Below are positions 41,967 to 61,371 of a stretch of DNA of 64,000 nucleotides, piece by piece. The notes under the pieces were generated by a model. That model did not search any database and had not been told where the DNA came from. It saw only the letters and a list, made by a program, of their open reading frames with translations. Within the stretch, counting starts at the first letter, position 1, and each line of letters opens with the position of its first letter. The stretch is from Pratylenchus scribneri (lineage: Eukaryota > Nematoda > Chromadorea > Rhabditida > Pratylenchidae), in NCBI GenBank assembly GCA_030063045.1, contig JAQSEB010000015.1, positions 1,426,001 through 1,490,000 on the forward strand. The letters run 5' to 3'. The translations under genes were made by a program, and so were the position numbers.

Positions 41967-41972
41967 TCAATG
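41967..41972. repeat. Left target-site duplication, TCAATG
   Basis: Identical to 61366-61371. On the GT43 coding strand it reads CATTGA, within the codons of the AIDMAG motif. Confidence 0.9.
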
Positions 41973-42039
41973 ACTACAATACGGCTCTATCTTTTTTTTT
42001 TTATGGGGACTAGCCCCCTCTGCCCCACCAGCCAAAAGA

Positions 42040-42990
42040 TAAAGGCTTACTTTAAAATGACCAAAGATCATTCTCGAGTCCAATGATCATTTTTTTGGAC
42101 AATTCTCGACACCATTGGAATAAAGATCTTTTTTATAAAAGGCTTACTTTGAATTGGCCAAAGATCATTCTCGAACCTCCCCCAAGGACCAAAGATCATT
42201 TTGATGGGCTATTCTCGAGTCCAAAGGACTAAAGATCATTTTGTTGGGTTATTCTCGAGTTCAGGTCATTCTCGAGCATCATTCTCGAGTCCATTTCTAT
42301 ACACCTCCATTCCCTCAGAGGTCAAAGTTCATTAGCGTATACATTTGGGCTGTAATTTTATGGCGACTCTGACTGAGTAAAAATGGACAGTGGCCCTCCG
42401 AGGTCAAATATTCGACTCCCTCTACCTATTCTTCTCCCCCTCAGGGTCAAAGACCACTATTCATCAACGCCAATTGATTTTAGTTTGCTCTTATTTTTCC
42501 AAGGTAAGAAGGACGATTCTTTCCATTACTAAAAAACTAATTTGCATTTTTTGTCCGTACGATTCCCCATTCTTCCAAATTCCAAATAATGCCCCAAACA
42601 TATTTTTATCCGCACTTATTTTCTCTTCCTACTTTGAAGTTTTTGAGCAAAAATGATCTAAAAGGGGCGCATAGCCCCCTCTGCCCCTCCAGCCAAAAGG
42701 TAAAGGCTTACTTTGAAATGACCAAAGATCATTCTCGAGTCCAAAGATCATTTTGTTGACCAATTCTCGAGCCCCGTAGGACTAAAGATCATTTTGTTGG
42801 ACAATTCTCGACCTCATTGGACTAAAGATCATTTTCTTGGGCTATTCTCGAGTAAGATCATTTTGTTGGACTATTCTCGAACCCAAAGGACTAAAGATCA
42901 TTTTATTGAGCTGGAGACTAGCTCCTCTATCCTCCAGCCAAAAGATAAAGGCTTATTTTGAATTGAGACCAAAGATCAATTTTCGGGGGC
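42040..42990. repeat. Subterminal repeat, CCAAAGATCATTCTCGAG units (left)
   Basis: Irregular units of about 40 bases contain AAAGATCATTTTGTTGGAC and TATTCTCGAGTCC. Two long copies of a CCCCTCTGCCCC / AAAAGATAAAGGCTTACTTT block are also present (42010 and 42675). Confidence 0.8.
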
Positions 42991-43018
42991 GACCATGGAA
43001 TATTAACAACGTTGAATA

Positions 43019-43893
43019 TTTCCAAAAGGGGCGTGGCCTATAATGAATAGATGTACTATGAAATATGAATACCATTGGATATATCCAAAAGGGGCGTGGC
43101 CTATAATGGATAGATATACTATGGAATACGAATACCTTTGGATATATTCAAAAGGGGCGTGGCCTATAATGGATAGATACACTATGGAATACGAATACCA
43201 TTGGATATATTCAAAAGGGGCGTGGCCTATAATGGATAGATATACTATGGAATACGAATGCCATTGGATATATCCAAAAGGGGCGTGGCCTATAATGGAT
43301 AGATACACTATGGAATACGAATGCCATTGGATATATCCAAAAGGGGCGTGGCCTATAATGGATAGATATACTATGGAATACGAATATTGAATATATCCAA
43401 AATGGGCGTGGCCTATAATGGATAGATATACTATGGAATACGAATGCCATTGGATATATCCAAAAGGGGCGTGGTCTATAATGGAGAGATATACTATGGA
43501 ATACGAATGCCATTGGATATATCCAAAAGGGGCGTGTCCTATCGTGAATAGATGTACTATGAAATATGAATACCCTTGTATATATCTAAAAGGGGCGTGG
43601 CCTATAATGGATAGATACACTATGGAATACGAATACCATTGGATATATCCAAAAGGGGCGTGGTCTATAATGGAGAGATATACTAAGGAATACGAATGCC
43701 ATTGGATATATCCAAAAGGGGCGTGTCCTATCATGAATAGATGTACTATGAAATATGAATACCATTGTATATATCCAAAAGGGGCGTGTCCTATAATGGA
43801 TAGATGTACTATGGAATACGAATACCATTGGATATATCCAAAAGGGGCGTGGCCTATAATGGATAGATGTACTATGGAATACGACTGCGAATA
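43019..43893. repeat. 63-bp minisatellite, about 14 units (left)
   Basis: The unit contains AAAAGGGGCGTGGCCTATAA and ACTATGGAATACGAAT. Units are 63 bp, with one shorter. Since 63 is a multiple of three, several frames on both strands stay open. Confidence 0.95.
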
Positions 43894-44194
43894 GTAAAAA
43901 GGGGCGGAGCCTATTATGGATCGAATAGAATTTCACTAAATGGGAAAAATGTGATTTTACTTACCTGAATAGATGATTATGGAGGAAAAGTTATTATCGA
44001 TTCTTCAGCGGCAATTACCTACTCTCACTTATGATTATATCTTTCAACACAAGTGATAGTGGTAAAGTGCAGCTGACAAACGATATCGTACTTTAATCAA
44101 AATGATGAATTCAAAAGATTTATCAACTTGGCTAATGACAACCCAATGGAAAATGAAAACAAAAAATGAAATTAATAGACTGAACTTAAATTCC

Positions 44195-44584
44195 TCATTT
44201 CTTTGTGCACCCCATTCCAAGCTTGGTCTTCAACTCATCCATATTTCTCCATTGACGTGCACTTCGTTTAAGTCGACCATTTCCTTCGGTCCGGATATTT
44301 CCCTCATCTAAATTCAATGTGCGATCATGAAATGTAATTGAAGCATTCCCTTTCTCACCATCAATCCATCCAACCTTAATCTCCTCCCCTTCCTGATGAA
44401 TTTTATTCCTTTTCATACATCCACTTCGCTGCATCCAACGCAATGTGAGAAGACAACAGAGGATGGAGAGACCCAACAGTGCTTCAGCCAAATAGAGTAA
44501 ATTTCTGGCCATTTGACGATACTCTTCCAATTCAGTCCACACATTTTCTTGCTTATAGTTTTCAAGAATTTGGGAATAGTTCAT
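44195..44584 (-). CDS. One-TM Polinton protein (left copy)
   Basis: 129 residues. A single membrane segment (LLYLAEALLGLSILCCLLTL, about residues 30-49) separates a short acidic N-terminus from a basic C-terminal tail. No catalytic or fusogen-like motif is seen; the protein is too short for a class of known fusogen. A TATATAAATA box lies about 90 bases upstream. Its place next to the capsid genes suggests a virion or membrane-associated role, which is inference. The right-arm copy is identical in sequence. It follows the capsid gene by 137 bases, more than the spacing elsewhere in the array, and has its own promoter-like box. Confidence 0.7.
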   Translation of the reverse strand: MNYSQILENYKQENVWTELEEYRQMARNLLYLAEALLGLSILCCLLTLRWMQRSGCMKRNKIHQEGEEIKVGWIDGEKGNASITFHDRTLNLDEGNIRTEGNGRLKRSARQWRNMDELKTKLGMGCTKK

Positions 44585-44721
44585 ATTTGTCGAGAATAAA
44601 GGGATAGAATGAATAGTACTAGTAGTTATTATTTTATTCTTTTTAAAAAGATTTGAAATTAAAAAATTTGTCTATTTATATATCAACTTGTAATACAATA
44701 GAAATGGGGAGAGGGAATGAT

Positions 44722-46053
44722 CTATCCAATCTTTGAATCCGAGACAATGTGACGATTATAGTCAATCATGATGAGTTGATCGAATTCGCCTAATACAATC
44801 ATCTCTGCTCCAGGAGCTGGAATAGCCGAATTGAATTGCATCCGAATCGATGTGGTCCCACTTCGCAATAGCTCAAATCCACAACTGTCATCCAGCGTAC
44901 TTGTCAAAGCGATGACAAACAGGGTCCATCCATCCTTGAATTGCTCAAACGTAATATCGAAGGAACGATCCGAGTTGGCCACACCCAGCGCTTCATACAT
45001 GTCGACAAAAGGGCGGACACATAAACTACTTCCAAAATTCATTCGATGTGGAACGGCTGGGTAGATTTGTCCTCCCGCATGAACGCTAATTTCTCTAATG
45101 TCAAATGGTATGAAATTGAATGGGGTGTTCGTCATCATGCCATTGAAAGCACCGTTATTAACCAGTCCAATTGTAATGCGACGAGGAATAGCTGCTGAGA
45201 AGACATTATGTTCAATTTCGGTACGACCCGCCGACAGGAAACAGCTTTTGATTTCCGTTTTCCTAACCGCATAGGTGGCCGGCTTCTGTTCCAACATTTT
45301 ATAGATGCTCAAATTCAGCGACGGTTGTACCTCCACCATTTTCACATAAAGTTTAATGTCATGAAGATAGAGACGATATTGTGTTCCGCCAAGACCTGCT
45401 GCTCTTAAACATTCCAAGAGGAAGGCATCTTTTCCGCGGTAAAGGGTGAATAGTAGATCCAAATTATTGAGCAAATACAACTCTTGATTGCCCAAATCGA
45501 AATCCAATCTCGAGAGAAATTGAGCTTTGGCTCCACTGGCAAATGGTGCACAACGGGCCAGGAAACCGCTATCCGCACGATCATTATGCTTTTTGGAGCG
45601 ATGATAGCCAGCGGCTGCCATGAAATGATCCTTCACTGATGCGGAATAGCTCAACTCTTGAGTCAAATATGCCTTGTAAGGGTAGAGAGGCCCGCTGTCG
45701 TACAATTCCGTATTTCCTGCCTCCACTTTCAATTGTTGGATGAATGTTTGACCAATGGATTGGATCGGACCAATTTCGGTATCATCAGCTGCAGTAATTG
45801 CGATCCAATTTCCATTATGAAATTTCTCAATAGACAATTCCAAATGTAAATACACCCGGTAGAGATCGGTCCATAAATTGTCACTGAACATTCGGAAGAG
45901 ATAGGGCGATTCCTGCGTAATCGTACTCAGAGGGAGTACCTCACGGAAAAAGGATTTGCAAACGGACACATTGGTTGGGGGAACGGAAAAGATGTTCAGT
46001 GCACTGTTGAAAGCCAAACCACTCTGATCACTAATTTTCTTTGGACAGCTCAT
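44722..46053 (-). CDS. MCP: Major capsid protein, double jelly roll (left copy)
   Basis: 443 residues, the usual length for Polinton major capsid proteins. The family N-terminal pattern is present: LNIFSVPPTNVSV, a beta-rich stretch with YLHLELSI, then GQTFIQQLKV and YPYKAYLTQELSYS. Polinton capsid proteins form hexon-like trimers of an icosahedral shell. It lies 26 bases downstream of the glycine-rich protein gene, so the two are probably co-transcribed. It differs from the right copy at one residue I can see (Tyr here, Ser there, near residue 65). The frame is intact and the start is the first ATG. Confidence 0.9.
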   Translation of the reverse strand: MSCPKKISDQSGLAFNSALNIFSVPPTNVSVCKSFFREVLPLSTITQESPYLFRMFSDNLWTDLYRVYLHLELSIEKFHNGNWIAITAADDTEIGPIQSIGQTFIQQLKVEAGNTELYDSGPLYPYKAYLTQELSYSASVKDHFMAAAGYHRSKKHNDRADSGFLARCAPFASGAKAQFLSRLDFDLGNQELYLLNNLDLLFTLYRGKDAFLLECLRAAGLGGTQYRLYLHDIKLYVKMVEVQPSLNLSIYKMLEQKPATYAVRKTEIKSCFLSAGRTEIEHNVFSAAIPRRITIGLVNNGAFNGMMTNTPFNFIPFDIREISVHAGGQIYPAVPHRMNFGSSLCVRPFVDMYEALGVANSDRSFDITFEQFKDGWTLFVIALTSTLDDSCGFELLRSGTTSIRMQFNSAIPAPGAEMIVLGEFDQLIMIDYNRHIVSDSKIG

Positions 46054-46079
46054 TTTTCTTTTTGTTGTTATCGTTTTCT

Positions 46080-46694
46080 CTAGTATGGACCCAAGGCGTC
46101 TACTTTGAGAGGTGGAATACCAGATTTTTTCTTGCCTTTATATGTTTTTTTATTTTTCGTTTGTTTTCTCCTCCCTCTTTTTATAATCGTTGATGGACCA
46201 AGTGTAGAAAGGAGTCGTCTTTTTATATGCTCATCAACTGGCCCATCTGTAGTGGGATCATCAACATGTAGTCCAGCTGCTGCTGCTCGTTTATAGCGTT
46301 TGAAATCAAAATTGTTTCCACCACTTCCCTTTTGTTTGTTCAAATTATTAGCGGCTTTGTCCAGCAAATTTTTTAATCCACTTTTTCCCTCGCTCACAAG
46401 CGTTTCTTTCACATCTTTACCATCGAGTAAACCGGAGAGAACTCTGCTCCCAGACTCTAGACCCTGACGACCTATGGCGGCGCCAACCTCCCTTCCAACA
46501 GGGAGAAGGAACCGCCATAGACTACGCAAGACAGAGCCTATGCCAGCTCCTCGTTGAAAGGCCATTCCACTGAAGACGGGGTAGCTAGCTGCCATGCCGC
46601 CACTCATTAATGCTTGACCGCCCCCACCACCTTGAATATCCCCTATGACGAAAAAACTCCAATCCACCGAGTTTGGATCGAAATCGGAATGCAT
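46080..46694 (-). CDS. Glycine-rich basic virion-type protein (left copy)
   Basis: 204 residues. An N-terminal Gly/Ala-rich part contains GGGGGQALMSGG and a segment with FQRGAGIGSVLRSLWRFLLP that looks amphipathic. A helical middle (ALESG-like, DGKDVKETL) follows, then a strongly basic C-terminus (KRGRRKQTKNKKTYKGKKK). Proteins of this design, with a GIGS..R.L...P pattern and a basic tail, accompany the capsid genes in Polintons and adintoviruses. An internal-capsid or core role like adenovirus pVI/core proteins is inferred. A TATATAAATA box lies about 55 bases upstream. One residue differs from the right copy (Asp6 here, Ala6 there). Confidence 0.75.
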   Translation of the reverse strand: MHSDFDPNSVDWSFFVIGDIQGGGGGQALMSGGMAASYPVFSGMAFQRGAGIGSVLRSLWRFLLPVGREVGAAIGRQGLESGSRVLSGLLDGKDVKETLVSEGKSGLKNLLDKAANNLNKQKGSGGNNFDFKRYKRAAAAGLHVDDPTTDGPVDEHIKRRLLSTLGPSTIIKRGRRKQTKNKKTYKGKKKSGIPPLKVDALGPY

Positions 46695-46763
46695 ATCTTC
46701 CTTCTCTTTTTTGAATTTACATAAAGATAGAAAAATTCACTTGGTATTTATATATGTACTATT

Positions 46764-47231
46764 TTAATGACGATGATCGAAGACAAACTTTCGTACAAAT
46801 TCACTGACCAATCGATCCCCATCCGTTTTGCAATGTGATAAATGCCGTATGATGCGAAGGAGGGGCCATCCTTGACATCGACGGTGCAAAAAATAAATGA
46901 CATGTTTTCCACAGGAAAGTGACAACGCCGATTGAATGGGTTCTTTCAACCGATTGACTTGATTGAATTGCTGTAGATAGGTGAAAATTTCCGGCGATTT
47001 GGGTGGCCATTGGGCCAAAGAATCGAAATAGTCGCACTGGCTGGGTGAATCCACATATATGGCCACCCAATGAGAACCGGGCAGAGAGGAGTCGTCCGTG
47101 TTCACAACCATACAATGGGGATATACCAACGCTCGACCGCGGGGAATTTGATCTGCTGGAAAGCAGCCAATATAACTTGAGGCAGTCCTCCGATTACGGC
47201 GTAAAATTTTATTTATCTCAGATGTGTACAT
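46764..47231 (-). CDS. PRO: Adenain-like cysteine protease (left copy)
   Basis: 155 residues. The C5/C48-type protease layout is clear: His54 in PGSHWVAIYVD, Asp70 in YFDSLAQ, and catalytic Cys107 in LSCGKHV, with Gln100 as likely oxyanion residue. The family N-terminus SEINKILRRN and the VVNTD strand are also present. In adenoviruses and Polintons this enzyme matures virion proteins. The start codon region overlaps the last codons of the penton-like gene by 14 bases. The protein is identical to the right copy. Confidence 0.9.
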   Translation of the reverse strand: MYTSEINKILRRNRRTASSYIGCFPADQIPRGRALVYPHCMVVNTDDSSLPGSHWVAIYVDSPSQCDYFDSLAQWPPKSPEIFTYLQQFNQVNRLKEPIQSALSLSCGKHVIYFLHRRCQGWPLLRIIRHLSHCKTDGDRLVSEFVRKFVFDHRH

Positions 47232-48369
47232 GATATATTATGTTAAAAAATGTAACAATGTTATTTATTAAAAATTTATCAGAAATAGGGCATTTTTTAA
47301 AATGTAATGTCAATGAACAAGTGCCATATTGAAAGGGCATTAGTTTGGTATTAGCTGTACGTATCTCAATGAATATCTCTTGGAACTCCCTCTTTATGAG
47401 CCGATGATATTGAATGATGGGATAGCACTCTTCAACAATTTCATCTGGTTGGCCTCGGATGTTGACCACACGTAATACTGGAGCAGCCACATCCCCTATG
47501 AACACAGGTTCAATCAAATCGGGTACATAAACATAGAAGGTTGAGACACCGCCACGCATGTCCGGCATAAAACATGCTAAATTGCTCGCATCCTCCAGTC
47601 GTGGATTTGGAAAGCCGAGCATATAGGCCAATTGGGCAGACAATTCCATGCATTGAACATAGTCCTTATCCAGTTTGAGACGAAATCTCTGTCGCTCTCC
47701 ATCGAAGCCGAATTTACAATACAGCTCGGGTGTCTTGTACGCATCCATCCATTTCTTTAAACCGCCCATCTCTCGAGCTGATTTAACCAGCTGGATGTCC
47801 AACTCGTTCAATTTGCTTGCCAATTTTTCGGCTAAAATTCGTTCAGTCTCTTTGGCACGCATCTTTTTGGCGTCCTCACGTCGCCATAAGTACTTTTCCA
47901 CAACTTCCACGCTATGGCTCCTTTCTTCTTCTCCCTCTTTAATAGTGACGAATCGTTGAAGTACCAGCTTCTTGGCCAATTCGTCAGACTCCTTCTCCGT
48001 CTCCTTCCAAACAACATCGGCTGCCTCCAATCTTTTTGCCAAATGATCTGCATCGGCCACGATGCTCTGATTCAATGCTGTGACCAACTCCATCGGGTTC
48101 TTCATTGATGCTGATGGGATGGGTATTTGTAGCTGTGCACCCGTTTGCCATATAAGACGAACAAATTGTTGCTCGCTTGTACCCAGCGAAGGCCACGTGT
48201 TTGGATAGACCAGAACGGCCAATCCTACCATCCATTGGGAATGGAAATGCAATTTTCGTGGCAATCGTACGCGAAACGAATTCGTACGGTTACCTTCCAC
48301 CATGGTGTTGGACGGACAAATAACATAAAATGATGTGGATTTGGATATTGAAGAAATAGCTGATGTCAT
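47218..48369 (-). CDS. mCP: Penton-like minor capsid protein
   Basis: 383 residues. The N-terminus has the typical Polinton penton pattern: FYVICPSNT, FRVRLPRKLHF and WMVGLAVLVYP, followed by jelly-roll-like strands and a C-terminal block with VLRVVNIRGQ. A long, highly charged helical insertion (about residues 105-215, rich in Lys/Glu/Arg) is unusual and may form a coiled coil. A TATAAAA box lies about 45 bases upstream (48411-48418). The last few codons lie inside the left inverted repeat, so the gene marks the inner edge of the duplication and is single-copy. The assignment rests on pattern only. Confidence 0.75.
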   Translation of the reverse strand: MTSAISSISKSTSFYVICPSNTMVEGNRTNSFRVRLPRKLHFHSQWMVGLAVLVYPNTWPSLGTSEQQFVRLIWQTGAQLQIPIPSASMKNPMELVTALNQSIVADADHLAKRLEAADVVWKETEKESDELAKKLVLQRFVTIKEGEEERSHSVEVVEKYLWRREDAKKMRAKETERILAEKLASKLNELDIQLVKSAREMGGLKKWMDAYKTPELYCKFGFDGERQRFRLKLDKDYVQCMELSAQLAYMLGFPNPRLEDASNLACFMPDMRGGVSTFYVYVPDLIEPVFIGDVAAPVLRVVNIRGQPDEIVEECYPIIQYHRLIKREFQEIFIEIRTANTKLMPFQYGTCSLTLHFKKCPISDKFLINNIVTFFNIIYHVHI

Positions 48370-48412
48370 TTTTACTTTATTGATGGAAAAGATATACTAG
48401 AACATTTGGTTT

Positions 48413-49621
48413 TTATATGATTGTCGTTGCGGGTATCCAGCTATTATGCTTTTCGGAATAGCCCTTCCATTTGACCAGACAATAATCCGCACCCTTACGT
48501 CGTTGTCGTTTCAAGATCCGCTCAATCTCATAGATTCGATCCCCATGTTCATTCTTCTCCTCCAGATCGCTCGCATTGGAATCCGCTTCGTCCTCATTCC
48601 CTTTCTGATACCGTTCAGTGCTCCGGACCAGACAAAGTTCTTGCGCATAGAACCAACCGGGCAAAAGTTGTCCATTGCTGTCACTTAGCCTATAGCTACA
48701 AGGCGTATTTGGTTGTTCACGTACCCGGGTCACGTGGAACAGCTCGTCACTGAATGTGGGCAAATAGCCTTTGCGGAACACATTTCGTCGTCTCTCCACG
48801 CGGACCTCATCACCTAATCGAAATCGTGGTCTACCTCCCAATCTCTTCCTTCCCTTTTTCTCACTCCACTCTTTTTCCATTTTCCTCTCCAGACGTTTTC
48901 TCAGCTGCTCAGCATTGGCAAAAGTTATATCGCGTGGGCGAAGTCCAAAGATTGCACTACTTGATGAGGAGTTTAACGCATTCACAATCCGCTGTATCAC
49001 ACCCACCCATGCTTTTGTACCCCGATGGGTAAAATAACGATAGAGGCGTTCTTTGATACTCCGATTGGCCCTTTCGGCCATTCCAGCATGCCAAAGGGGT
49101 GATGTTTGCATACAATGGTGTTGCACTTGACGTCGTCGAAAATAGGATTGCACTTGAGCGGCGGTGAATTCCCTACCGGAATCGGTCATCAATCGCCAGG
49201 GGATGTAGCCACATCTGGTGAATACTCGTTCAAAAGCATCGATCATATCCCCGCTTTGTTTGCTCCGAACCGGTTCAACGAAGAGCTGACGACTGAGCAC
49301 ATCAATACACACCAACATGTACCCATTACCTCCGTTCCATCGTTTTAGCCGTTGCATATCGGCCAAATCGGCTTGCCAATCCGTATGCAATCCGCTGGCA
49401 CGCGTTGAGAGACGTTTGAATTTACGAACCACCCTCTTATGTAAAGTGTATACTCGTTGACGAGCCAAATAATCTCTCACTTGGCTACGCCTAATATTCC
49501 CATCAATTTTTTTGGCCGCTTGAAAGAGCGGTTCCATACTGGTGAAACATGTGGATGAAGAGGGATCCTTATACAGAGGATCGAGAATATCGTCAATCTC
49601 TCGTGTATTTTGAGCTGTCAT
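48413..49621 (-). CDS. INT: Retrovirus-type integrase with chromodomain
   Basis: 402 residues. The catalytic core has Asp85 (DWQADLADM), Asp147 (LMTDSGREF) and Glu183 (GMAERANRSIKE), spaced 35 residues apart as in DD35E enzymes. An SH3-like basic part follows (FRLGDEVRVERR). The C-terminus is a chromodomain (YEIERILKRQ, VKWKGYSEKHNSWIP), which in other elements binds modified histones. The integrase inserts the linear element into chromosomes and makes the 6-bp duplication. The frame is intact and all catalytic residues are present. It ends 43 bases before the penton-like gene. Confidence 0.95.
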   Translation of the reverse strand: MTAQNTREIDDILDPLYKDPSSSTCFTSMEPLFQAAKKIDGNIRRSQVRDYLARQRVYTLHKRVVRKFKRLSTRASGLHTDWQADLADMQRLKRWNGGNGYMLVCIDVLSRQLFVEPVRSKQSGDMIDAFERVFTRCGYIPWRLMTDSGREFTAAQVQSYFRRRQVQHHCMQTSPLWHAGMAERANRSIKERLYRYFTHRGTKAWVGVIQRIVNALNSSSSSAIFGLRPRDITFANAEQLRKRLERKMEKEWSEKKGRKRLGGRPRFRLGDEVRVERRRNVFRKGYLPTFSDELFHVTRVREQPNTPCSYRLSDSNGQLLPGWFYAQELCLVRSTERYQKGNEDEADSNASDLEEKNEHGDRIYEIERILKRQRRKGADYCLVKWKGYSEKHNSWIPATTII

Positions 49622-49667
49622 ACCTTTTTCTTTTTACTCCAGATCAAAAAAATGAAATGCTTTTTAT

Positions 49668-50624: not shown

Positions 50625-50625
50625 C

Positions 50626-51075: not shown

Positions 51076-51083
51076 AAATCTGC

Positions 51084-51830
51084 CTATGTTCCTTTATTTC
51101 CACTAGTGATGCCCTCGTTGGCTATGTATACGATGCACTGCTCGCCCGGGTATATATGTGTTCTCAATCTGAATTGAATTGGTGTTTTTGGATGCATGTC
51201 CACTAGTAGATAGCCAAATTGTTGGACAGTCGCATCCGCATATGCTTCAACAAAAAATTGATGTGCCTGTCGTCCGGGGAACAATTGTGTAGCCAGATTC
51301 CTAATCTGTAGCGCTCCAACCGGATTCCTCATCAACACCAGATAATGAGAATTATTTCTGGCCACGCGTAAATGTGGAGAGGCGAACAGATGTTGCGTGA
51401 CCAACACTATACTACACCCCCAATTATGCGATCCTCGAGTGAATAGAACGTCCAAAAATGGACTCCTTAATCCCACCATCAAATCATCCAACACCAAGAG
51501 GAGTCGCCCACCACAATCGGAAGCCGCCCTCTGAATCTGTCCTTCATCGGGTACTCCATAATGGACACAGACTTTAAATTGTTCCCCATCAATGGGAGTG
51601 TCGAAATTTTGTTTTGCCTCCTGCTGTTGAAGATGAAAAATATTTGCATTCATCTCGCCATAGCAATAGAGTAGGCATCGAGGTGTGGGCCTAATCATTT
51701 GGGCGGAATATTTGATCAGTCGCAGTACCCATTCCGATTTCCCACTGCCAGTACAACCAGACACACACATGGTGAATGGGTGTTGAAATATGTTAGCATT
51801 TTCTTCACTTCCCTTTCCTTCTGAATCCAT
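51084..51830 (-). CDS. ATP: Genome-packaging ATPase, FtsK/HerA type
   Basis: 248 residues from the ATG at 51830, chosen over an upstream ATG at 51905 because the extra 25 residues are AT-derived and a TATA box lies between the two. Walker A is GCTGSGKS (residues 25-32) and Walker B is LLLVLDD (about 110-116); the fold continues with TRGSHNWGCSIVLVTQHLF, which holds the sensor Gln. The enzyme pumps the element's DNA into capsids in related viruses. It is the first gene of the leftward array and faces the PAZ gene across about 120 bases. Confidence 0.9.
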   Translation of the reverse strand: MDSEGKGSEENANIFQHPFTMCVSGCTGSGKSEWVLRLIKYSAQMIRPTPRCLLYCYGEMNANIFHLQQQEAKQNFDTPIDGEQFKVCVHYGVPDEGQIQRAASDCGGRLLLVLDDLMVGLRSPFLDVLFTRGSHNWGCSIVLVTQHLFASPHLRVARNNSHYLVLMRNPVGALQIRNLATQLFPGRQAHQFFVEAYADATVQQFGYLLVDMHPKTPIQFRLRTHIYPGEQCIVYIANEGITSGNKGT

Positions 51831-51952
51831 TTTTCCTCTCAATATATTCTCACATATATTCACATTTTTATATATATAGATTATCAATTTGATAATTTCA
51901 GACAAAATTTAAAAAAACTCAAAATCTTCTAATCCAAAAGAATAAAAAAAAT
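51831..51952. promoter_or_regulatory. Divergent promoter region, ATPase / PAZ gene
   Basis: This short spacer lies between two outward-facing genes. A TATATATAAAAA box on the minus strand (51865-51876) precedes the ATPase. For the plus-strand gene only A-rich sequence is seen. Confidence 0.5.
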
Positions 51953-53135
51953 ATGCCACTCGTACCACCTATTCCCATGATGTGGGCTATGGAGCGTGAA
52001 GAGGATGATGGGCAACAGTCAACGCTGCCTGACCAATTGACCAATAACATTAAAGCTGAGACCGAAACTTTGCCATCGTTAAACCTTGTTGATGCTGGCG
52101 AACAGGTATCAGCTCAAAAAATGTAAACAATTTCCAATTCCCAATTTCAGAAGTCTAAATCGCCCATTGGGACAGGTGAAGACGATGGACAGCGTCCCCC
52201 AACTCCCTGGTCAATCCCTTGGATTCTGATGGACAATTTGCTTCCATCAAACAATGGAAAAAAGGAGGAGGAAAATGCGACAAAAAATGAATTGCAAAAA
52301 GGCAAGAATATTTTTTGCAAAAAAAATTAACAATTAACAATTATATTTAAAGATGATGATGATGACAAGGATTCCACTCTACCAATCAGGCTTATCATTG
52401 ATGAAGACGAGGATGATGATTATGATCCCACTCCAGCGATTAAGCTTCCCACTGATGAAGATGAGAAGAAGGAGATGAACCGAAAAGGAGAAAATAATCC
52501 AAAGAGCGAGGAAGTTGGAACCAAAGAGGAAGAAGAAGAGAATTTGATGGAGATGAAGACCGCTTCGACAACTCCAATGGATGGGGCCCCCTATTGGGAA
52601 GAAGAAGAAGAAGAGCAACAGATGAAAGAAACAATCATCACAATTCCTCTATTGGACTATCTTTGTGCCTACATGGAATGTTCCCTGAAGGAGTTGCAAG
52701 TCTTGCTTCAAACGTTGGAGCCACGCCGTCGAATCCTCACTCATTTGCAAACTTAATCTGCGAACATCGCATCTTCGTCCCCCCGAACGCAATTTGCCTC
52801 TCCATGCCCATGATCTTTCATCCCAAAATGCGAATTTCGCCTATGCATGCGGCGGCTATTTGGACATAACCGTACGCCAGTATTACTATGTGCGGCATAA
52901 CCGAAAACTCAAACATCCCTATCTGCCATGTTTGATCGAATTCGGCGGTGGTCAGCATGCCTCCTATTACCCACTCGAGGTGATTGCGGTTCATCTGACC
53001 AAGACTTCAACAGCAGCTGGACCATCCACTTCTTCCAACCCAAACAAGAAAATCCTCACCACACCAATTAACCACAACATGTATGGATGTCACCATCATC
53101 ATTGTTGCTGTGCCAAACAGAAGCGCCACAATTGA
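51953..53135 (+). pseudogene. PAZ-domain (Argonaute-like) protein captured in the Polinton, one frame break
   Basis: Exons 51953-52105, 52151-52301 and 52353 onward; the second intron has GC-AG borders (G|GCAAGA). The N-terminal part is acidic and low-complexity (poly Asp/Glu). From 52635 the frame reads like the linker before an Argonaute PAZ domain (IPLLDYLCAYMECS, LEPRRRILTHL), then stops at 52756. The homology continues one base over, with DLSSQNANF and a clear PAZ core: ITVRQYYYVRHNRKLKHPYL, PCLIEF, YYPLEV. PAZ binds the 3' end of small RNAs. MID and PIWI are absent; the product ends in a His/Cys-rich tail (CHHHHCCCAKQK). The break may be a real mutation, an assembly error or an unseen intron. 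Confidence 0.7.
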
Positions 53136-53286
53136 TGTGTGTGACAAATTCCCACCATGATATTATTTTTTGTAAAATTTTTAAATTTATTATTCATTTG
53201 TAATTTTTTTTAAATTCATTTATTAGTAATAATTCATATTGATTCATTTTATAATGCGATAAATTTTTTTTGTAGATTTGTCAAAA

Positions 53287-54060
53287 ATGATTTTTACTCC
53301 TATTCCCTCCCTACAAAATAGTACAATCACATTTCGTCTTAACCGATCATTCACCCCCAATGAATATTTGGCTCTGGCACGTCATGGAGTGAACACGGAG
53401 TACTGTCCCAGGCGTTTCCATGCCATCATCATGCGACTCCGTTCGACCACAATGGGTGGTAGTGTGACAGTCATTGTTTTTTCGAGTGGAAGATTGGTGA
53501 TGACTGGCATTCGACAACATTTACAATCCACCAATGATGACAACAACATTAGTCCCCAAATTCAATCGGTGATTGGACGGATTTGTCGTCGATTGGATCG
53601 CTCATTGGCTGCAGGCTACCGTATGGGTGAATGTGGCGAGCCAGATGGAATAACCCCGCCCCCACCTAACCTACGAGCTCATTCTATCCATTTGCGGAAT
53701 TTGGTGGGTGCACGTCGTCTTCCCTTCCCATTGGCCCTTTTACCATTGAGAGAATGGATGATGGAAGCCTACCGTACTCGACTACCACTCCAGCCAATCA
53801 CAGAAGGACAGACATGGCCCATCCGCAATGTGACAGTCATTAATTGTGTTTTGGACCAAACACAATTCCCCGGACTACGATGTGCCCTACGATTGGATGA
53901 TGGTGGCGAAGAGGCCGGCTACGAGCTCACATCATTGGTCTTTAGGACGGGAAGGATGATTGTTACCGGAGTGAATACCATTGGACAAATGGAAAGGGGA
54001 TTGGATGTGCTGGAGCAAATATATTCCCAATTCCCTTCCCCCAATTCTCCTAACCATTGA
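53287..54060 (+). CDS. TATA-binding-protein-like factor in the Polinton
   Basis: 257 residues. Two TBP-type repeats are visible. Repeat 1: NTEYCPRRFHAIIMRLR and VIVFSSGRLVMTG (about residues 10-78). Repeat 2: HLRNLVGARRLPFPL, then after an insertion QFPGLRCAL and SLVFRTGRMIVTG (about 134-250). All four phenylalanines that kink TATA DNA in TBP have counterparts (Phe44, Phe65, Phe194, Phe219). Loops are longer than in cellular TBP (about 180-residue core), so it is divergent. The ATG at 53287 lies just after a TTTGTAG acceptor-like site. It sits between the PAZ gene and polB. Role inferred: recognising promoters of the element, or interfering with host TBP. Other members of the TBP-fold family are less likely given the FSSG motif. 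Confidence 0.85.
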   Translation: MIFTPIPSLQNSTITFRLNRSFTPNEYLALARHGVNTEYCPRRFHAIIMRLRSTTMGGSVTVIVFSSGRLVMTGIRQHLQSTNDDNNISPQIQSVIGRICRRLDRSLAAGYRMGECGEPDGITPPPPNLRAHSIHLRNLVGARRLPFPLALLPLREWMMEAYRTRLPLQPITEGQTWPIRNVTVINCVLDQTQFPGLRCALRLDDGGEEAGYELTSLVFRTGRMIVTGVNTIGQMERGLDVLEQIYSQFPSPNSPNH

Positions 54061-54156
54061 TATTTCCTTTCACATTTATATGATGAATTTAATTTATTAA
54101 TTTTTAAAAGTGAATATAAATAATTATATTGATAAAATTTACAAAAAAAATTTCAA

Positions 54157-56098
54157 TCAAAAAATGTCCTCTTCCTCTTCACTTTCTGTCCGACCATCCT
54201 CCTCCTCCTCATCATCAATGGGTGCATTGCCAAAGTGGTCATCTTCGTCCTCGTCTTCATCGCCCAATTGTTGTCCATCTGCCACCAACCAGCCAAATGG
54301 CCTCGTTTGATAGCCAGCCAAAACCACTCCTTTGCTATAGACGGGCTTGTAGATCTTCATTGTCCGCCTTGTGTTGATGTGCGCTCGCCTTGTTCGTATG
54401 AATTGTCGCTGAGGGATGGTGATTTGACGACGACCACGCCTACAAAAAGAAGGAAAATTATTTGGGGGAAAATGATTGAGAAAAAACCCACCTCACTTGG
54501 CCAATAGCAAAATGACGTTGAATCATTCGCCGCATCCGTTGATAGGTGAGGAGTTGTTGGGCCTCATGTGTCAATTCAATCCCGCGTACCTTCATATCAG
54601 CACGAAGTCCTTGGCCACTTTCTGCGCAGCGGTGAAGGAGTACATAGTTTTTGGGGCCACCGCACCAAAATTCGATGATTTCACGGCCAGGGAGCTCTCT
54701 TTTCATTTGCCCCAACCATTCCCCTTCCTCGACACATGCTGGTCCTCCCCTCTGACGCACGTGAATTGCCGAATCGGTGTCACAGTAGAGCAGTTTTCCA
54801 CCATTTTGTCGAATTTGGCACAGGTACTCGTAGAGGATCAACCGCGATTGGGATGTCACAAAGCAGGCAATTTGAAGTGCATTCGTGGCTGGTCCTTTGG
54901 CAAATTGGGGTTTTTTACGCATCTGCACCCGGTCCAAATGGTCATTGATGTGGGTGAAGTCGACCAATTCGCGTCGGCTGTCAGCAAGCATGTTATGGAA
55001 CTGGCGGGGCGTCTTCGTGTAACACACTTCCTCACTCTCCGGCCTTTGTGCCAATTTGCCATACAACGCATTGAGTAACATTTTCTAAAAATTTATTTTG
55101 AATAATTATTTTGATGGAAAAAAGGTCGTACCGCAATATGGCGGAGTCCGGGATTGAGTAAAATGGATGGAGCATCCAGCTGGATGCCTTCCCGATCCAA
55201 CCATTGCTGCAAATATTGTTGCCTCTGTTCGTCAGTGTGACAATTTTGAGGCCAACCGGATGCCTCTGCTTTTAGTCGAAGCCACGTGTCCACATATCCG
55301 CTGAACAGCCCATTGTTGCCGGCCAATTGGGCAGATCCGGCCACTGACCATTCCTCATAATGCCAAACCTTTAATGTCATTTATTTTTTTTGTAGAGAAT
55401 CGAATATTTTTACCTCAAAAAGATCGAGCACGGAATAACCGAGGGAAAGGGCCTTGTTCAGCTCGACATGGGTGTATGCTGTGATCCAACTTCGCTCCTG
55501 TTCACCATGTGGACATGCCCGTTGCTGCTGCTGTTCACCACATTTGGCGCAAAGTGGAAAGACCAACCGACCACTCAATGTTCTCATTGGTAGAAGTGGA
55601 AGAAACCAATCGTTGTTGATGTTGTCGGCCATATTTTGTTGTTGTTGTTGTACACCACGTGGGGGCAGAACGCGACAGAGGATGAAGCCTTTGAATGGGT
55701 TATGCTCCACACGGTTCCAAGGCAATGGTGGAATTGTTGGGGGCTCGAGCTGTTCACGAGTGAGCACACGCGGATGACCCAATGGGAATGAGGTGTATTT
55801 CATGGCTGTTGGGTACAACGATACCTAAAAATGAGGATGTTTATGTGAAAGGAAAGTGTGTAATCGACTTACAATGTCCAGAACGCAAATTTCCTCTTCT
55901 GGACCGCACACGTGCGAAAGGGCATACGGTTCCACACGTCCTCCAAAAAGCGCATGGCGTCGAAGGTCGAGTGGTCCTGGGAGATTTCGCTTCGCCTGGG
56001 CATTCAATTGACGAAGATGACGATCGCGGGCCAACATTTGACGCCATTCACACCCCCACACCTGCTTGACTTGCAGTCCATGTTGTTGCTCCAGAGAA
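54157..56098 (-). pseudogene. POLB: DNA polymerase B, C-terminal half only, five exons
   Basis: Exons: 56098-55873, 55824-55414, 55368-55132, 55084-54492 and 54439-54157. The first exon has QVWGCEWRQ and FGGRVEPY and ends in LDI; the next starts VSLYPTAM, together giving motif A. VWHYEEW and TWLRLKAEASGWP follow, then LLNALYGKLAQR (motif B) and YCDTDSAIH (motif C). The C-terminus ends in an acidic tail (stop at 54157). These are features of the protein-primed type polymerase of Polintons. Everything upstream of the palm, including the 3'-5' exonuclease and N-terminal region, is missing because the right inverted repeat starts at 56098. No start codon of its own is convincing. Confidence 0.9.
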
Positions 56099-56110
56099 AC
56101 ATAATATATC

Positions 56111-56578
56111 ATGTACACATCTGAGATAAATAAAATTTTACGCCGTAATCGGAGGACTGCCTCAAGTTATATTGGCTGCTTTCCAGCAGATCAAATTCCC
56201 CGCGGTCGAGCGTTGGTATATCCCCATTGTATGGTTGTGAACACGGACGACTCCTCTCTGCCCGGTTCTCATTGGGTGGCCATATATGTGGATTCACCCA
56301 GCCAGTGCGACTATTTCGATTCTTTGGCCCAATGGCCACCCAAATCGCCGGAAATTTTCACCTATCTACAGCAATTCAATCAAGTCAATCGGTTGAAAGA
56401 ACCCATTCAATCGGCGTTGTCACTTTCCTGTGGAAAACATGTCATTTATTTTTTGCACCGTCGATGTCAAGGATGGCCCCTCCTTCGCATCATACGGCAT
56501 TTATCACATTGCAAAACGGATGGGGATCGATTGGTCAGTGAATTTGTACGAAAGTTTGTCTTCGATCATCGTCATTAA
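56111..56578 (+). CDS. PRO: Adenain-like cysteine protease (right copy)
   Basis: Identical protein to the copy at 46764-47231, with His54, Asp70 and Cys107 intact. Its upstream DNA differs: here the start codon lies 13 bases inside the repeat and faces truncated polB, so it has lost the penton-side promoter context. Whether it is expressed is open. Confidence 0.9.
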   Translation: MYTSEINKILRRNRRTASSYIGCFPADQIPRGRALVYPHCMVVNTDDSSLPGSHWVAIYVDSPSQCDYFDSLAQWPPKSPEIFTYLQQFNQVNRLKEPIQSALSLSCGKHVIYFLHRRCQGWPLLRIIRHLSHCKTDGDRLVSEFVRKFVFDHRH

Positions 56579-56587
56579 AATAGTACA

Positions 56588-56597
56588 TATATAAATA
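56588..56597 (+). promoter_or_regulatory. TATA box before the glycine-rich protein gene
   Basis: TATATAAATA, about 50 bases before the ATG at 56648. The same box occurs inverted at 46745-46754 in the left arm. Confidence 0.6.
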
Positions 56598-56647
56598 CCA
56601 AGTGAATTTTTCTATCTTTATGTAAATTCAAAAAAGAGAAGGAAGAT

Positions 56648-57262
56648 ATGCATTCCGATTTCGCTCCAAACTCGGTGGATTGGAGTTTTTTCGTCATAGG
56701 GGATATTCAAGGTGGTGGGGGCGGTCAAGCATTAATGAGTGGCGGCATGGCAGCTAGCTACCCCGTCTTCAGTGGAATGGCCTTTCAACGAGGAGCTGGC
56801 ATAGGCTCTGTCTTGCGTAGTCTATGGCGGTTCCTTCTCCCTGTTGGAAGGGAGGTTGGCGCCGCCATAGGTCGTCAGGGTCTAGAGTCTGGGAGCAGAG
56901 TTCTCTCCGGTTTACTCGATGGTAAAGATGTGAAAGAAACGCTTGTGAGCGAGGGAAAAAGTGGATTAAAAAATTTGCTGGACAAAGCCGCTAATAATTT
57001 GAACAAACAAAAGGGAAGTGGTGGAAACAATTTTGATTTCAAACGCTATAAACGAGCAGCAGCAGCTGGACTACATGTTGATGATCCCACTACAGATGGG
57101 CCAGTTGATGAGCATATAAAAAGACGACTCCTTTCTACACTTGGTCCATCAACGATTATAAAAAGAGGGAGGAGAAAACAAACGAAAAATAAAAAAACAT
57201 ATAAAGGCAAGAAAAAATCTGGTATTCCACCTCTCAAAGTAGACGCCTTGGGTCCATACTAG
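56648..57262 (+). CDS. Glycine-rich basic virion-type protein (right copy)
   Basis: 204 residues, the same as the left copy except Ala6 for Asp6. The Gly-rich N-terminus, hydrophobic FQRGAGIGSV segment and basic tail are unchanged. The gap to the capsid gene is 22 bases here and 26 in the left arm. Virion role inferred as for the left copy. Confidence 0.75.
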   Translation: MHSDFAPNSVDWSFFVIGDIQGGGGGQALMSGGMAASYPVFSGMAFQRGAGIGSVLRSLWRFLLPVGREVGAAIGRQGLESGSRVLSGLLDGKDVKETLVSEGKSGLKNLLDKAANNLNKQKGSGGNNFDFKRYKRAAAAGLHVDDPTTDGPVDEHIKRRLLSTLGPSTIIKRGRRKQTKNKKTYKGKKKSGIPPLKVDALGPY

Positions 57263-57284
57263 AGAAAACGATAACAACAAAAAA

Positions 57285-58616
57285 ATGAGCTGTCCAAAGA
57301 AAATTAGTGATCAGAGTGGTTTGGCTTTCAACAGTGCACTGAACATCTTTTCCGTTCCCCCAACCAATGTGTCCGTTTGCAAATCCTTTTTCCGTGAGGT
57401 ACTCCCTCTGAGTACGATTACGCAGGAATCGCCCTATCTCTTCCGAATGTTCAGTGACAATTTATGGACCGATCTCTCCCGGGTGTATTTACATTTGGAA
57501 TTGTCTATTGAGAAATTTCATAATGGAAATTGGATCGCAATTACTGCAGCTGATGATACCGAAATTGGTCCGATCCAATCCATTGGTCAAACATTCATCC
57601 AACAATTGAAAGTGGAGGCAGGAAATACGGAATTGTACGACAGCGGGCCTCTCTACCCTTACAAGGCATATTTGACTCAAGAGTTGAGCTATTCCGCATC
57701 AGTGAAGGATCATTTCATGGCAGCCGCTGGCTATCATCGCTCCAAAAAGCATAATGATCGTGCGGATAGCGGTTTCCTGGCCCGTTGTGCACCATTTGCC
57801 AGTGGAGCCAAAGCTCAATTTCTCTCGAGATTGGATTTCGATTTGGGCAATCAAGAGTTGTATTTGCTCAATAATTTGGATCTACTATTCACCCTTTACC
57901 GCGGAAAAGATGCCTTCCTCTTGGAATGTTTAAGAGCAGCAGGTCTTGGCGGAACACAATATCGTCTCTATCTTCATGACATTAAACTTTATGTGAAAAT
58001 GGTGGAGGTACAACCGTCGCTGAATTTGAGCATCTATAAAATGTTGGAACAGAAGCCGGCCACCTATGCGGTTAGGAAAACGGAAATCAAAAGCTGTTTC
58101 CTGTCGGCGGGTCGTACCGAAATTGAACATAATGTCTTCTCAGCAGCTATTCCTCGTCGCATTACAATTGGACTGGTTAATAACGGTGCTTTCAATGGCA
58201 TGATGACGAACACCCCATTCAATTTCATACCATTTGACATTAGAGAAATTAGCGTTCATGCGGGAGGACAAATCTACCCAGCCGTTCCACATCGAATGAA
58301 TTTTGGAAGTAGTTTATGTGTCCGCCCTTTTGTCGACATGTATGAAGCGCTGGGTGTGGCCAACTCGGATCGTTCCTTCGATATTACGTTTGAGCAATTC
58401 AAGGATGGATGGACCCTGTTTGTCATCGCTTTGACAAGTACGCTGGATGACAGTTGTGGATTTGAGCTATTGCGAAGTGGGACCACATCGATTCGGATGC
58501 AATTCAATTCGGCTATTCCAGCTCCTGGAGCAGAGATGATTGTATTAGGCGAATTCGATCAACTCATCATGATTGACTATAATCGTCACATTGTCTCGGA
58601 TTCAAAGATTGGATAG
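57285..58616 (+). CDS. MCP: Major capsid protein, double jelly roll (right copy)
   Basis: 443 residues, intact. It differs from the left copy by one residue that I can see (Ser for Tyr near residue 65, from one base change at about 57478). Keeping two almost identical full-length copies points to a recent duplication or continuing copy exchange between the arms. Confidence 0.9.
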   Translation: MSCPKKISDQSGLAFNSALNIFSVPPTNVSVCKSFFREVLPLSTITQESPYLFRMFSDNLWTDLSRVYLHLELSIEKFHNGNWIAITAADDTEIGPIQSIGQTFIQQLKVEAGNTELYDSGPLYPYKAYLTQELSYSASVKDHFMAAAGYHRSKKHNDRADSGFLARCAPFASGAKAQFLSRLDFDLGNQELYLLNNLDLLFTLYRGKDAFLLECLRAAGLGGTQYRLYLHDIKLYVKMVEVQPSLNLSIYKMLEQKPATYAVRKTEIKSCFLSAGRTEIEHNVFSAAIPRRITIGLVNNGAFNGMMTNTPFNFIPFDIREISVHAGGQIYPAVPHRMNFGSSLCVRPFVDMYEALGVANSDRSFDITFEQFKDGWTLFVIALTSTLDDSCGFELLRSGTTSIRMQFNSAIPAPGAEMIVLGEFDQLIMIDYNRHIVSDSKIG

Positions 58617-58655
58617 ATCATTCCCTCTCCCCATTTCTATTGTATTACAAGTTGA

Positions 58656-58665
58656 TATATAAATA
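58656..58665 (+). promoter_or_regulatory. TATA box before the one-TM gene
   Basis: TATATAAATA, the same ten bases as before the glycine-rich gene, about 90 bases upstream of the ATG at 58754. Its left-arm copy is at 44673-44682 (inverted). Confidence 0.6.
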
Positions 58666-58753
58666 GACAAATTTTTTAATTTCAAATCTTTTTAAAAAGA
58701 ATAAAATAATAACTACTAGTACTATTCATTCTATCCCTTTATTCTCGACAAAT

Positions 58754-59143
58754 ATGAACTATTCCCAAATTCTTGAAAACTATAAGCAAGAAAATGTGTG
58801 GACTGAATTGGAAGAGTATCGTCAAATGGCCAGAAATTTACTCTATTTGGCTGAAGCACTGTTGGGCCTCTCCATCCTCTGTTGTCTTCTCACATTGCGT
58901 TGGATGCAGCGAAGTGGATGTATGAAAAGGAATAAAATTCATCAGGAAGGGGAGGAGATTAAGGTTGGATGGATTGATGGTGAGAAAGGGAATGCTTCAA
59001 TTACATTTCATGATCGCACATTGAATTTAGATGAGGGAAATATCCGGACCGAAGGAAATGGTCGACTTAAACGAAGTGCACGTCAATGGAGAAATATGGA
59101 TGAGTTGAAGACCAAGCTTGGAATGGGGTGCACAAAGAAATGA
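58754..59143 (+). CDS. One-TM Polinton protein (right copy)
   Basis: 129 residues, identical to the left copy at 44195-44584. It is the outermost gene of the arm; beyond it lie only the minisatellite and subterminal repeats. Confidence 0.7.
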   Translation: MNYSQILENYKQENVWTELEEYRQMARNLLYLAEALLGLSILCCLLTLRWMQRSGCMKRNKIHQEGEEIKVGWIDGEKGNASITFHDRTLNLDEGNIRTEGNGRLKRSARQWRNMDELKTKLGMGCTKK

Positions 59144-59446
59144 GGAATTTAAGTTCAGTCTATTAATTTCATTTTTTGTTTTCATTTTCCATTGGGTTGT
59201 CATTAGCCAAGTTGATAAATCTTTTGAATTCATCATTTTGATTAAAGTACGATATCGTTTGTCAGCTGCACTTTACCACTATCACTTGTGTTGAAAGATA
59301 TAATCATAAGTGAGAGTAGGTAATTGCCGCTGAAGAATCGATAATAACTTTTCCTCCATAATCATCTATTCAGGTAAGTAAAATCACATTTTTCCCATTT
59401 AGTGAAATTCTATTCGATCCATAATAGGCTCCGCCCCTTTTTACTA

Positions 59447-60319
59447 TTCGCAGTCGTATTCCATAGTACATCTATCCATTATAGGCCACGCCCCTTTTGG
59501 ATATATCCAATGGTATTCGTATTCCATAGTACATCTATCCATTATAGGACACGCCCCTTTTGGATATATACAATGGTATTCATATTTCATAGTACATCTA
59601 TTCATGATAGGACACGCCCCTTTTGGATATATCCAATGGCATTCGTATTCCTTAGTATATCTCTCCATTATAGACCACGCCCCTTTTGGATATATCCAAT
59701 GGTATTCGTATTCCATAGTGTATCTATCCATTATAGGCCACGCCCCTTTTAGATATATACAAGGGTATTCATATTTCATAGTACATCTATTCACGATAGG
59801 ACACGCCCCTTTTGGATATATCCAATGGCATTCGTATTCCATAGTATATCTCTCCATTATAGACCACGCCCCTTTTGGATATATCCAATGGCATTCGTAT
59901 TCCATAGTATATCTATCCATTATAGGCCACGCCCATTTTGGATATATTCAATATTCGTATTCCATAGTATATCTATCCATTATAGGCCACGCCCCTTTTG
60001 GATATATCCAATGGCATTCGTATTCCATAGTGTATCTATCCATTATAGGCCACGCCCCTTTTGGATATATCCAATGGCATTCGTATTCCATAGTATATCT
60101 ATCCATTATAGGCCACGCCCCTTTTGAATATATCCAATGGTATTCGTATTCCATAGTGTATCTATCCATTATAGGCCACGCCCCTTTTGAATATATCCAA
60201 AGGTATTCGTATTCCATAGTATATCTATCCATTATAGGCCACGCCCCTTTTGGATATATCCAATGGTATTCATATTTCATAGTACATCTATTCATTATAG
60301 GCCACGCCCCTTTTGGAAA
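59447..60319. repeat. 63-bp minisatellite (right)
   Basis: Inverse copy of 43019-43893 with the same unit order, including the single short unit (near 59940-59960). Confidence 0.95.
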
Positions 60320-60367
60320 TATTCAACGTTGTTAATATTCCATGGTCGCCCCCGAAAATTGATCTTT

Positions 60368-61300
60368 GGTCTCAATTCAAAATAAGCCTTTATCTTTTGG
60401 CTGGAGGATAGAGGAGCTAGTCTCCAGCTCAATAAAATGATCTTTAGTCCTTTGGGTTCGAGAATAGTCCAACAAAATGATCTTACTCGAGAATAGCCCA
60501 AGAAAATGATCTTTAGTCCAATGAGGTCGAGAATTGTCCAACAAAATGATCTTTAGTCCTACGGGGCTCGAGAATTGGTCAACAAAATGATCTTTGGACT
60601 CGAGAATGATCTTTGGTCATTTCAAAGTAAGCCTTTACCTTTTGGCTGGAGGGGCAGAGGGGGCTATGCGCCCCTTTTAGATCATTTTTGCTCAAAAACT
60701 TCAAAGTAGGAAGAGAAAATAAGTGCGGATAAAAATATGTTTGGGGCATTATTTGGAATTTGGAAGAATGGGGAATCGTACGGACAAAAAATGCAAATTA
60801 GTTTTTTAGTAATGGAAAGAATCGTCCTTCTTACCTTGGAAAAATAAGAGCAAACTAAAATCAATTGGCGTTGATGAATAGTGGTCTTTGACCCTGAGGG
60901 GGAGAAGAATAGGTAGAGGGAGTCGAATATTTGACCTCGGAGGGCCACTGTCCATTTTTACTCAGTCAGAGTCGCCATAAAATTACAGCCCAAATGTATA
61001 CGCTAATGAACTTTGACCTCTGAGGGAATGGAGGTGTATAGAAATGGACTCGAGAATGATGCTCGAGAATGACCTGAACTCGAGAATAACCCAACAAAAT
61101 GATCTTTAGTCCTTTGGACTCGAGAATAGCCCATCAAAATGATCTTTGGTCCTTGGGGGAGGTTCGAGAATGATCTTTGGCCAATTCAAAGTAAGCCTTT
61201 TATAAAAAAGATCTTTATTCCAATGGTGTCGAGAATTGTCCAAAAAAATGATCATTGGACTCGAGAATGATCTTTGGTCATTTTAAAGTAAGCCTTTATC
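60368..61300. repeat. Subterminal CTCGAGAATGATCTTTGG repeat (right)
   Basis: Inverse copy of the left subterminal repeat at 42040-42990. Confidence 0.8.
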
Positions 61301-61365
61301 TTTTGGCTGGTGGGGCAGAGGGGGCTAGTCCCCATAAAAAAAAAAAGATAGAGCCGTATTGTAGT

Positions 61366-61371
61366 TCAATG
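61366..61371. repeat. Right target-site duplication, TCAATG
   Basis: Direct copy of 41967-41972, immediately outside the right end of the element. Confidence 0.9.

Follow-up and report, generated by a model that had tools for sequence, protein, structure and literature searches.

The window analysed here is a 64,000-nucleotide stretch from Pratylenchus scribneri, a nematode that is likely plant-parasitic (contig JAQSEB010000015.1, positions 1,426,001 to 1,490,000). It contains a gene whose product resembles the TATA-binding protein (TBP), and which an earlier note had described as the cargo of a Polinton, a virus-like transposon. TBP is among the most conserved eukaryotic proteins. The gene and its two repeats lie as follows:

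53287..54060, + strand: TBP-like gene, with an ATG at 53287 and a stop codon ending at 54060; 257 amino acids, intact
53311..53541, + strand: first TBP repeat, approximately residues 9-85, holding Phe44 and Phe65
53677..54042, + strand: second TBP repeat, approximately residues 131-252, holding Phe194 and Phe219

The reading frame has exactly the boundaries given in the note and contains no internal stops. Both TBP repeats are recognisable, as had been proposed, since the Pfam TBP profile (PF00352) matches in two stretches with E=1e-15 and 57.7 bits (cut-off 22.9), and a search of PDB sequences returned yeast TBP chains as the top matches (best E=4.5e-11). The four DNA-intercalating phenylalanines, F44, F65, F194 and F219, are all found where the note placed them, and structure prediction, which it had suggested as a check, yields the TBP saddle. 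The protein nevertheless diverges strongly from ordinary TBP, with long loops and a short N-terminal stretch before the core; viral fold matches in BFVD share approximately 7-16% identity with it. Judged from its sequence, the 257-residue protein is a TBP-family member encoded by the Polinton itself, and it probably binds, and may bend, TATA DNA.

The inverted repeats and target-site duplication of a single element enclose the gene and so place it within a Polinton, as the note had held. The features of this element, including its open reading frames (ORFs), are:

41967..41972, + strand: left copy of the 6-bp target-site duplication TCAATG
41973..47244, + strand: left arm, a 5.27-kb terminal inverted repeat
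44722..46053, - strand: 443-amino-acid ORF, a capsid candidate from gene order only; second copy at 57285-58616, + strand
46764..47231, - strand: Ulp1/adenain-type cysteine protease; second copy at 56111-56578, + strand
48413..49621, - strand: rve integrase with chromodomain (Pfam PF00665, 3.5e-9)
51084..51830, - strand: DNA-packaging-type ATPase (Adeno_IVa2 / Pox_A32, Pfam)
54160..56098, - strand: remnant of DNA polymerase B (polB), from which the N-terminal part including the exonuclease region is absent; cut at the right inverted repeat
56098..61365, - strand: right arm, terminal inverted repeat
61366..61371, + strand: right copy of the 6-bp target-site duplication TCAATG

The insertion at 41973-61365 is a 19.4-kb element flanked on both sides by TCAATG, and its integrase, ATPase, protease, inverted repeats and 6-bp target-site duplication identify it as a Polinton. 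The ATPase (PF02456, 21.2 bits, cut-off 21) and the protease (PF02902, 21.3 bits, cut-off 20.7) pass their Pfam thresholds narrowly; the truncated polB fragments (E ~0.02) fall below theirs. The polB of the sibling copy L010 has extra upstream open frames, exonuclease-like by eye, that are missing from the window copy. No Pfam match was obtained for the 443-residue ORF, and Pfam recognised neither RNA polymerase nor TFIIB among the element ORFs scanned. The window copy is rearranged, in that its arms duplicate the protease, the capsid region and further ORFs, the right arm also truncating the polymerase gene. Both arms also contain 63-bp tandem arrays of approximately 14 units each (43012-43884 and 59454-60326). 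The ATPase and polB fragments do flank the TBP-like gene, as the note had reported, but a gene with a PAZ domain, situated between the ATPase and TBP, had been missed.

The TBP-like gene is not peculiar to this copy. A search of the assembly (227,248,964 bases) gave at least 72 clusters of TBP-domain matches, the window copy being L001. Five of the 72 are of host type: a TBP1 pair (L037, C41:1379937), a second, multi-exon TBP pair (L029, L030; 69% identical to the canonical host TBP), and L041, identified by eye, which we take to be a TLF-like host locus. The 67 non-host loci include a diverged one of unsure kind, L042. A Polinton ATPase match lies at most 12 kb away in 54 of these 67, where 1.6% would be expected. 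Viewed from the ATPase, TBP is nearby in 51 of the 52 most similar of 149 ATPase matches versus 3 of the other 97, and therefore marks one clade of these Polintons, in which it is a standard gene. The label of cargo undersells a standard gene of a Polinton clade.

The arrangement of neighbours is likewise conserved. The ATPase, PAZ and TBP genes stand side by side in 17 of 20 loci fetched (6-10 kb); two others have PAZ and TBP with no ATPase nearby (L024, L027), and one has TBP alone (L028). A polB gene follows TBP in all eight loci of lineages A2, B and C, as well as in A1 loci; the nine fetched loci of lineages D and E, whose elements may be shortened or carry another polymerase, gave no polB match past TBP. 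Three of the D/E loci (L012, L013, L026) show only low-complexity sequence or short frames for 3-4.5 kb past TBP. In lineage F the PAZ-TBP pair adjoins the protease, the nearest ATPase being approximately 9 kb off. Lineage G (L031, L032 and L039 on C131; also C181 and C142:369839) is more TBP-like and intronless; on C131 two inverted copies, separated by about 12 kb, flank a DNA polymerase B ORF, and on C181, approximately 7 kb from a lineage G TBP, a 783-residue ORF (L040:2-2350, + strand) matches the phlebovirus-type glycoprotein G2 fusion domain with E=1.5e-75.

The TBP gene is under purifying selection. Ratios of nonsynonymous to synonymous divergence (dN/dS) were obtained from Nei-Gojobori counts between the window and sibling copies, with L008, a close sibling that has an internal stop in its TBP gene, left out. 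Comparison with L004, L006 and L007 gave 15/5, 17/7 and 22/13 synonymous/nonsynonymous changes and dN/dS of 0.10, 0.13 and 0.18, respectively (binomial p ~2e-6 each). No selection signal is present against L002, L003 and L005, which differ from the window by 3-5 changes only; against lineage A2, dN/dS is 0.12-0.15 with dS near saturation. The note had named three findings that would overturn its reading, and none of them was borne out: the profile match is significant, the TBP saddle is predicted, and, as opposed to absence from every related element together with decay, the gene is present in dozens of copies in the same genome and selected in other elements.

The gene immediately upstream of TBP is disrupted in the window, although its frame is open at the disruption site in all seven other copies aligned:

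51953..53135, + strand: PAZ-domain gene, upstream of TBP on the same strand; frame disrupted in the window copy, start codon predicted
L010:3607-4419 and L003:540-1346: the PAZ gene in two siblings

The L010 sequence matches the Ago2 PAZ domain with E=2.1e-5, and for its predicted fold all 50 Foldseek matches listed are Argonautes or Argonaute PAZ domains; every Pfam PAZ score for the pieces tested lies below the cut-off, and no PIWI domain was seen in the protein. The neighbouring gene is thus predicted to encode an Argonaute-type PAZ domain, which may act on small RNAs. A homologue (42%; L057:169-528, + strand) lies next to the ATPase in a Polinton locus where TBP was not detected, so that PAZ may be older than TBP in Polintons. 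Gene models in Globodera (P0038) and Heterodera (P0043, P0044) join PAZ-type sequence with TBP, and a single fused gene was considered and rejected because the window has separate start codons and a stop after PAZ. In lineage C Polintons a thymidine-kinase-like ORF, recognised by eye, comes right after TBP (L016, ~5376-6010, + strand), and the Globodera gene model P0049 fuses PAZ-type, TBP and thymidine kinase pieces.

Relatives of the TBP-like protein occur in other nematodes. A family alignment search matched 79 proteins, spanning Heterodera trifolii, H. schachtii, Globodera pallida, Meloidogyne hapla and, by entry name, M. enterolobii, together with environmental sequences and, at the end of the list, weak archaeal TBPs; a scan of IMG/VR with the TBP alignment gave no relatives. 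In its core, the host's canonical TBP1 shares 99% identity with proteins carrying the label Ditylenchus. The 34 main-clade rows of a 51-row tree group together (100/100) on a long branch among animal TBPs, a placement that the tree program's warning about the meeting of long branches qualifies and that a smaller tree does not settle. A viral source of the main-clade TBP seems less likely on this tree, from which giant-virus TBPs were left out. When lineages F and G were constrained to join the main clade, the approximately unbiased test gave p-AU 0.31, and a single origin of Polinton TBPs is thus neither shown nor rejected. The best evidence on origin comes from lineage F, whose TBP gene carries a 39-nt intron that matches, in aligned position and phase, one shared by the two host TBPs (46 and 54 nt), and which, at least, therefore appears to derive from a nematode TBP gene. 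Introns of lineages D and E near TGAK were considered as counterparts of the host intron; they differ from it by approximately 3 residues in position, and also in phase, and were not used. Together, the lineage F intron and the tree suggest an ancient acquisition of the Polinton TBP gene from a nematode TBP.

The two faces of the protein have fared differently. A selection of 28 main-clade proteins was compared with yeast TBP as reference, a position being counted as conserved when identical in at least 80% of rows. Conserved positions make up 14 of 22 DNA contacts versus 14 of 158 other positions (p 2.6e-8), and F99, F116 and F190 (yeast numbering) are retained in 28/28, so that the predicted DNA-binding face is conserved in the main clade. 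Also retained are A86 (28/28), N91 (23/28), E93 (28/28) and R107 (26/28), which we take to be the TFIIA contacts of the N-terminal stirrup. At yeast E186, E188 and L189, by contrast, the window protein has D, T and Q, and because these residues of the TFIIB-docking stirrup are replaced it does not appear to be a canonical general-factor TBP; lineages F and G retain E188. By numbering offset, yeast E188 presumably corresponds to E146 of Arabidopsis TBP2. According to a published review, four residues of the TBP C-terminal stirrup contact TFIIB and E146 of Arabidopsis TBP2 makes the strongest contact; the same review reports that the TBP-TFIIB interaction is dispensable in yeast cells for activated transcription (PMC10005294). 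Since yeast activated transcription manages without this interaction, loss of the TFIIB contact need not mean inactivity.

A candidate target for the conserved face lies between the two central transcription units:

51869..51878, no strand: TATA-box sequence TATATATATA, in the divergent ATPase / PAZ-TBP promoter

The leftward ATPase unit and the rightward PAZ-TBP unit diverge from 51830-51953, and TATATATATA, with five TA units, lies in the gap; position 51869 is the sole place of TATATATA in the 19.4-kb element. The canonical TATA form is TATAAAAG. In all 23 distinct A-E loci for which the predicted ATPase start was available, many of them near copies of each other, TATATATA stands approximately 18-70 nt away from that start; it precedes the PAZ start by 50-85 nt in all 11 loci examined and is unique in 9 of the 11 loci that span 8-10 kb. 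Shuffled promoters of seven representatives contained it in 9-97 of 2000 cases. For comparison, 20 Polinton ATPases with no TBP were fetched, of which 16 were located by tblastn and four dropped; TATATATA was found within 350 nt of 0/16 of these controls, whose upstream architecture differs. Because TATA-like sites also occur in the TBP-less controls and before other window ORFs (TATATAAATA precedes the 204- and 129-residue ORFs), the TBP-bearing clade is distinguished by its symmetrical TA-repeat box and not by TATA-likeness as such.

On balance, we think it probable that the Polinton TBP binds this central box and steers host RNA polymerase II (Pol II) to the element's own genes. The protein would bind the TA-rich box in the divergent promoter and bring host Pol II to two units, the ATPase and PAZ-TBP. 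Recruitment might proceed via TFIIA, through altered TFIIB contacts or directly, an alternative route being proposed because the usual TFIIB contact is lost. Owing to its symmetry, one site could serve both units, and the TBP gene would lie inside a unit that it controls. Speculatively, a box of five TA units could be weak for host TBP and yet readable by a TBP with an altered stirrup. An extended form of this idea, which we regard as doubtful, is a private expression cassette in which a TBP without normal TFIIB docking recognises a symmetrical TA-repeat box that serves host TBP poorly, and activates both units, while the co-transcribed PAZ protein shields the transcripts from small-RNA silencing. 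The earlier suggestion that the element brings its own promoter-recognition factor gains from the conserved TATA-box sequence in the central promoter, but with the TFIIB-docking residues lost it is still something that we infer.

Several observations weigh against promoter steering by the Polinton TBP. Across the 28 relatives the TFIIB stirrup retains E186 in 5, E188 in none and L189 in 3, so that Pol II might not be recruited in the ordinary way; the fourth phenylalanine (F207) stays Phe in only 16/28. The box is less exclusive under looser terms: TATAWAWR occurs within 350 nt in 8 of the 16 TBP-less controls, four of these being TATATAAA at the predicted ATPase start, and over the whole 761 nt the 20 controls contain TATAWAWR in 14 and TATATATA in one (L061), the differing upstream architecture of the controls being a further weakness. 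Lineage F lacks TATATATA both at the ATPase upstream (L038) and in the 3.2-kb PAZ-TBP loci (L033-L036), with TATATAA upstream of PAZ in the four loci checked. Furthermore, the box might serve host TBP as well, the window copy is damaged in its PAZ frame and polB, and the model draws on sequence and predicted structure.

The main rival holds that the protein is a repressor or decoy, occupying TATA boxes in its own promoter and perhaps in the host without engaging TFIIB, blocking initiation and so forming a self-limiting switch. A DNA-binding face that is conserved while E188 is lost in 28/28 relatives fits such a blocker well, as does the position of the box in the promoter of the protein's own transcription unit; moreover E188 is equated, by numbering offset, with the main TFIIB contact of Arabidopsis TBP2. 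We nonetheless consider a repressor unlikely, given that the presumed TFIIA-contact residues A86, N91, E93 and R107 are retained, which a pure blocker would not need. Less likely again is a DNA-bending, architectural role outside transcription, in packaging, integration or the start of replication. It could draw on the conserved DNA-kinking phenylalanines, the nearness of the ATPase in lineages A-E and the presence of polB after TBP in A-C; however, TBP pairs with PAZ rather than with integrase or polB, the pair is intact beside the protease in lineage F, a polB match past TBP was found in 0 of the nine D/E loci fetched, and the conserved TATATATA is at the gene start, not at the element ends.

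Two further explanations would deny the gene a role in the element. That a host TBP copy was caught by chance and is now decaying might be read from the duplicated and broken genes of the window element and the internal stop in its close sibling L008. Such a copy would hardly keep an open frame, a strong synonymous excess, the same neighbours in lineages A-E and relatives in three other nematode genera, and the conserved neighbours and synonymous excess largely refute this very improbable account. The least credible possibility is a host TBP paralogue merely near or inside Polinton insertions. A second host TBP paralogue does exist (L029, L030), but it has several exons and its 3.3-kb loci gave no match to a Polinton gene, whereas a single element, with its inverted repeats and target-site duplication, surrounds the window gene; enclosure by the element ends, with neighbours conserved in lineages A-E, largely refutes this explanation.

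An element lineage with a diverged TBP, but with no RNA polymerase gene recognised in the ORFs scanned, would amount to a natural experiment: the building of a private second Pol II promoter code within an animal nucleus. The protein also offers direct access to the question of how Polintons are turned on. The pairing of TBP with PAZ points to interference by nematode Polintons with RNA silencing as well as transcription.

The literature searched yielded no Polinton-encoded TBP, although a description in Jeong 2023 or Widen 2023 is possible; a Cymbomonas study attributes TATA-binding proteins only to other viral elements. What appears new, within that literature, is TBP as a standard Polinton gene, viral TBPs and nematode Polinton cargo being known. 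Like canonical TBP (PF00352; host TBP1, L037), the protein has two repeats, a predicted saddle, intercalating phenylalanines and minor-groove contacts; unlike it, the protein is transposon-encoded and strongly diverged, with long loops and replaced TFIIB stirrup glutamates. The late factor of beta- and gammaherpesviruses (BcRF1 of Epstein-Barr virus, ORF24 of Kaposi's sarcoma-associated herpesvirus) is TBP-like, directly contacts host Pol II and uses unusual TATA-like boxes. The Polinton case differs in that the box is TATATATA and the carrier a transposon. TLF/TRF2 is an animal TBP paralogue, presumably represented in this host by L041. TRF2 has lost an intercalating phenylalanine according to PMC10005294, whereas the window protein retains all four. 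Giant viruses and mirusviruses likewise encode TBP, which is present in 59% of mirusvirus genomes (PMC10132985), and two other studies state that a megavirus TBP accompanies the virus's own RNA polymerase (PMC11464507) and that transcription factors of an alga-infecting virus are said to redirect RNA polymerase (PMC12085832). These viral genomes are far larger, some with their own RNA polymerase or TFIIB, whereas the Polinton gene likely has its source in a nematode TBP. Closest in circumstance are the wosp proteases and krma kinases, nematode genes that were also acquired by nematode Polintons, as cargo that moved between species, according to a meeting report (PMC10680173); TBP differs from them in keeping its neighbours through lineages A-E and in acting, if at all, in basal transcription.
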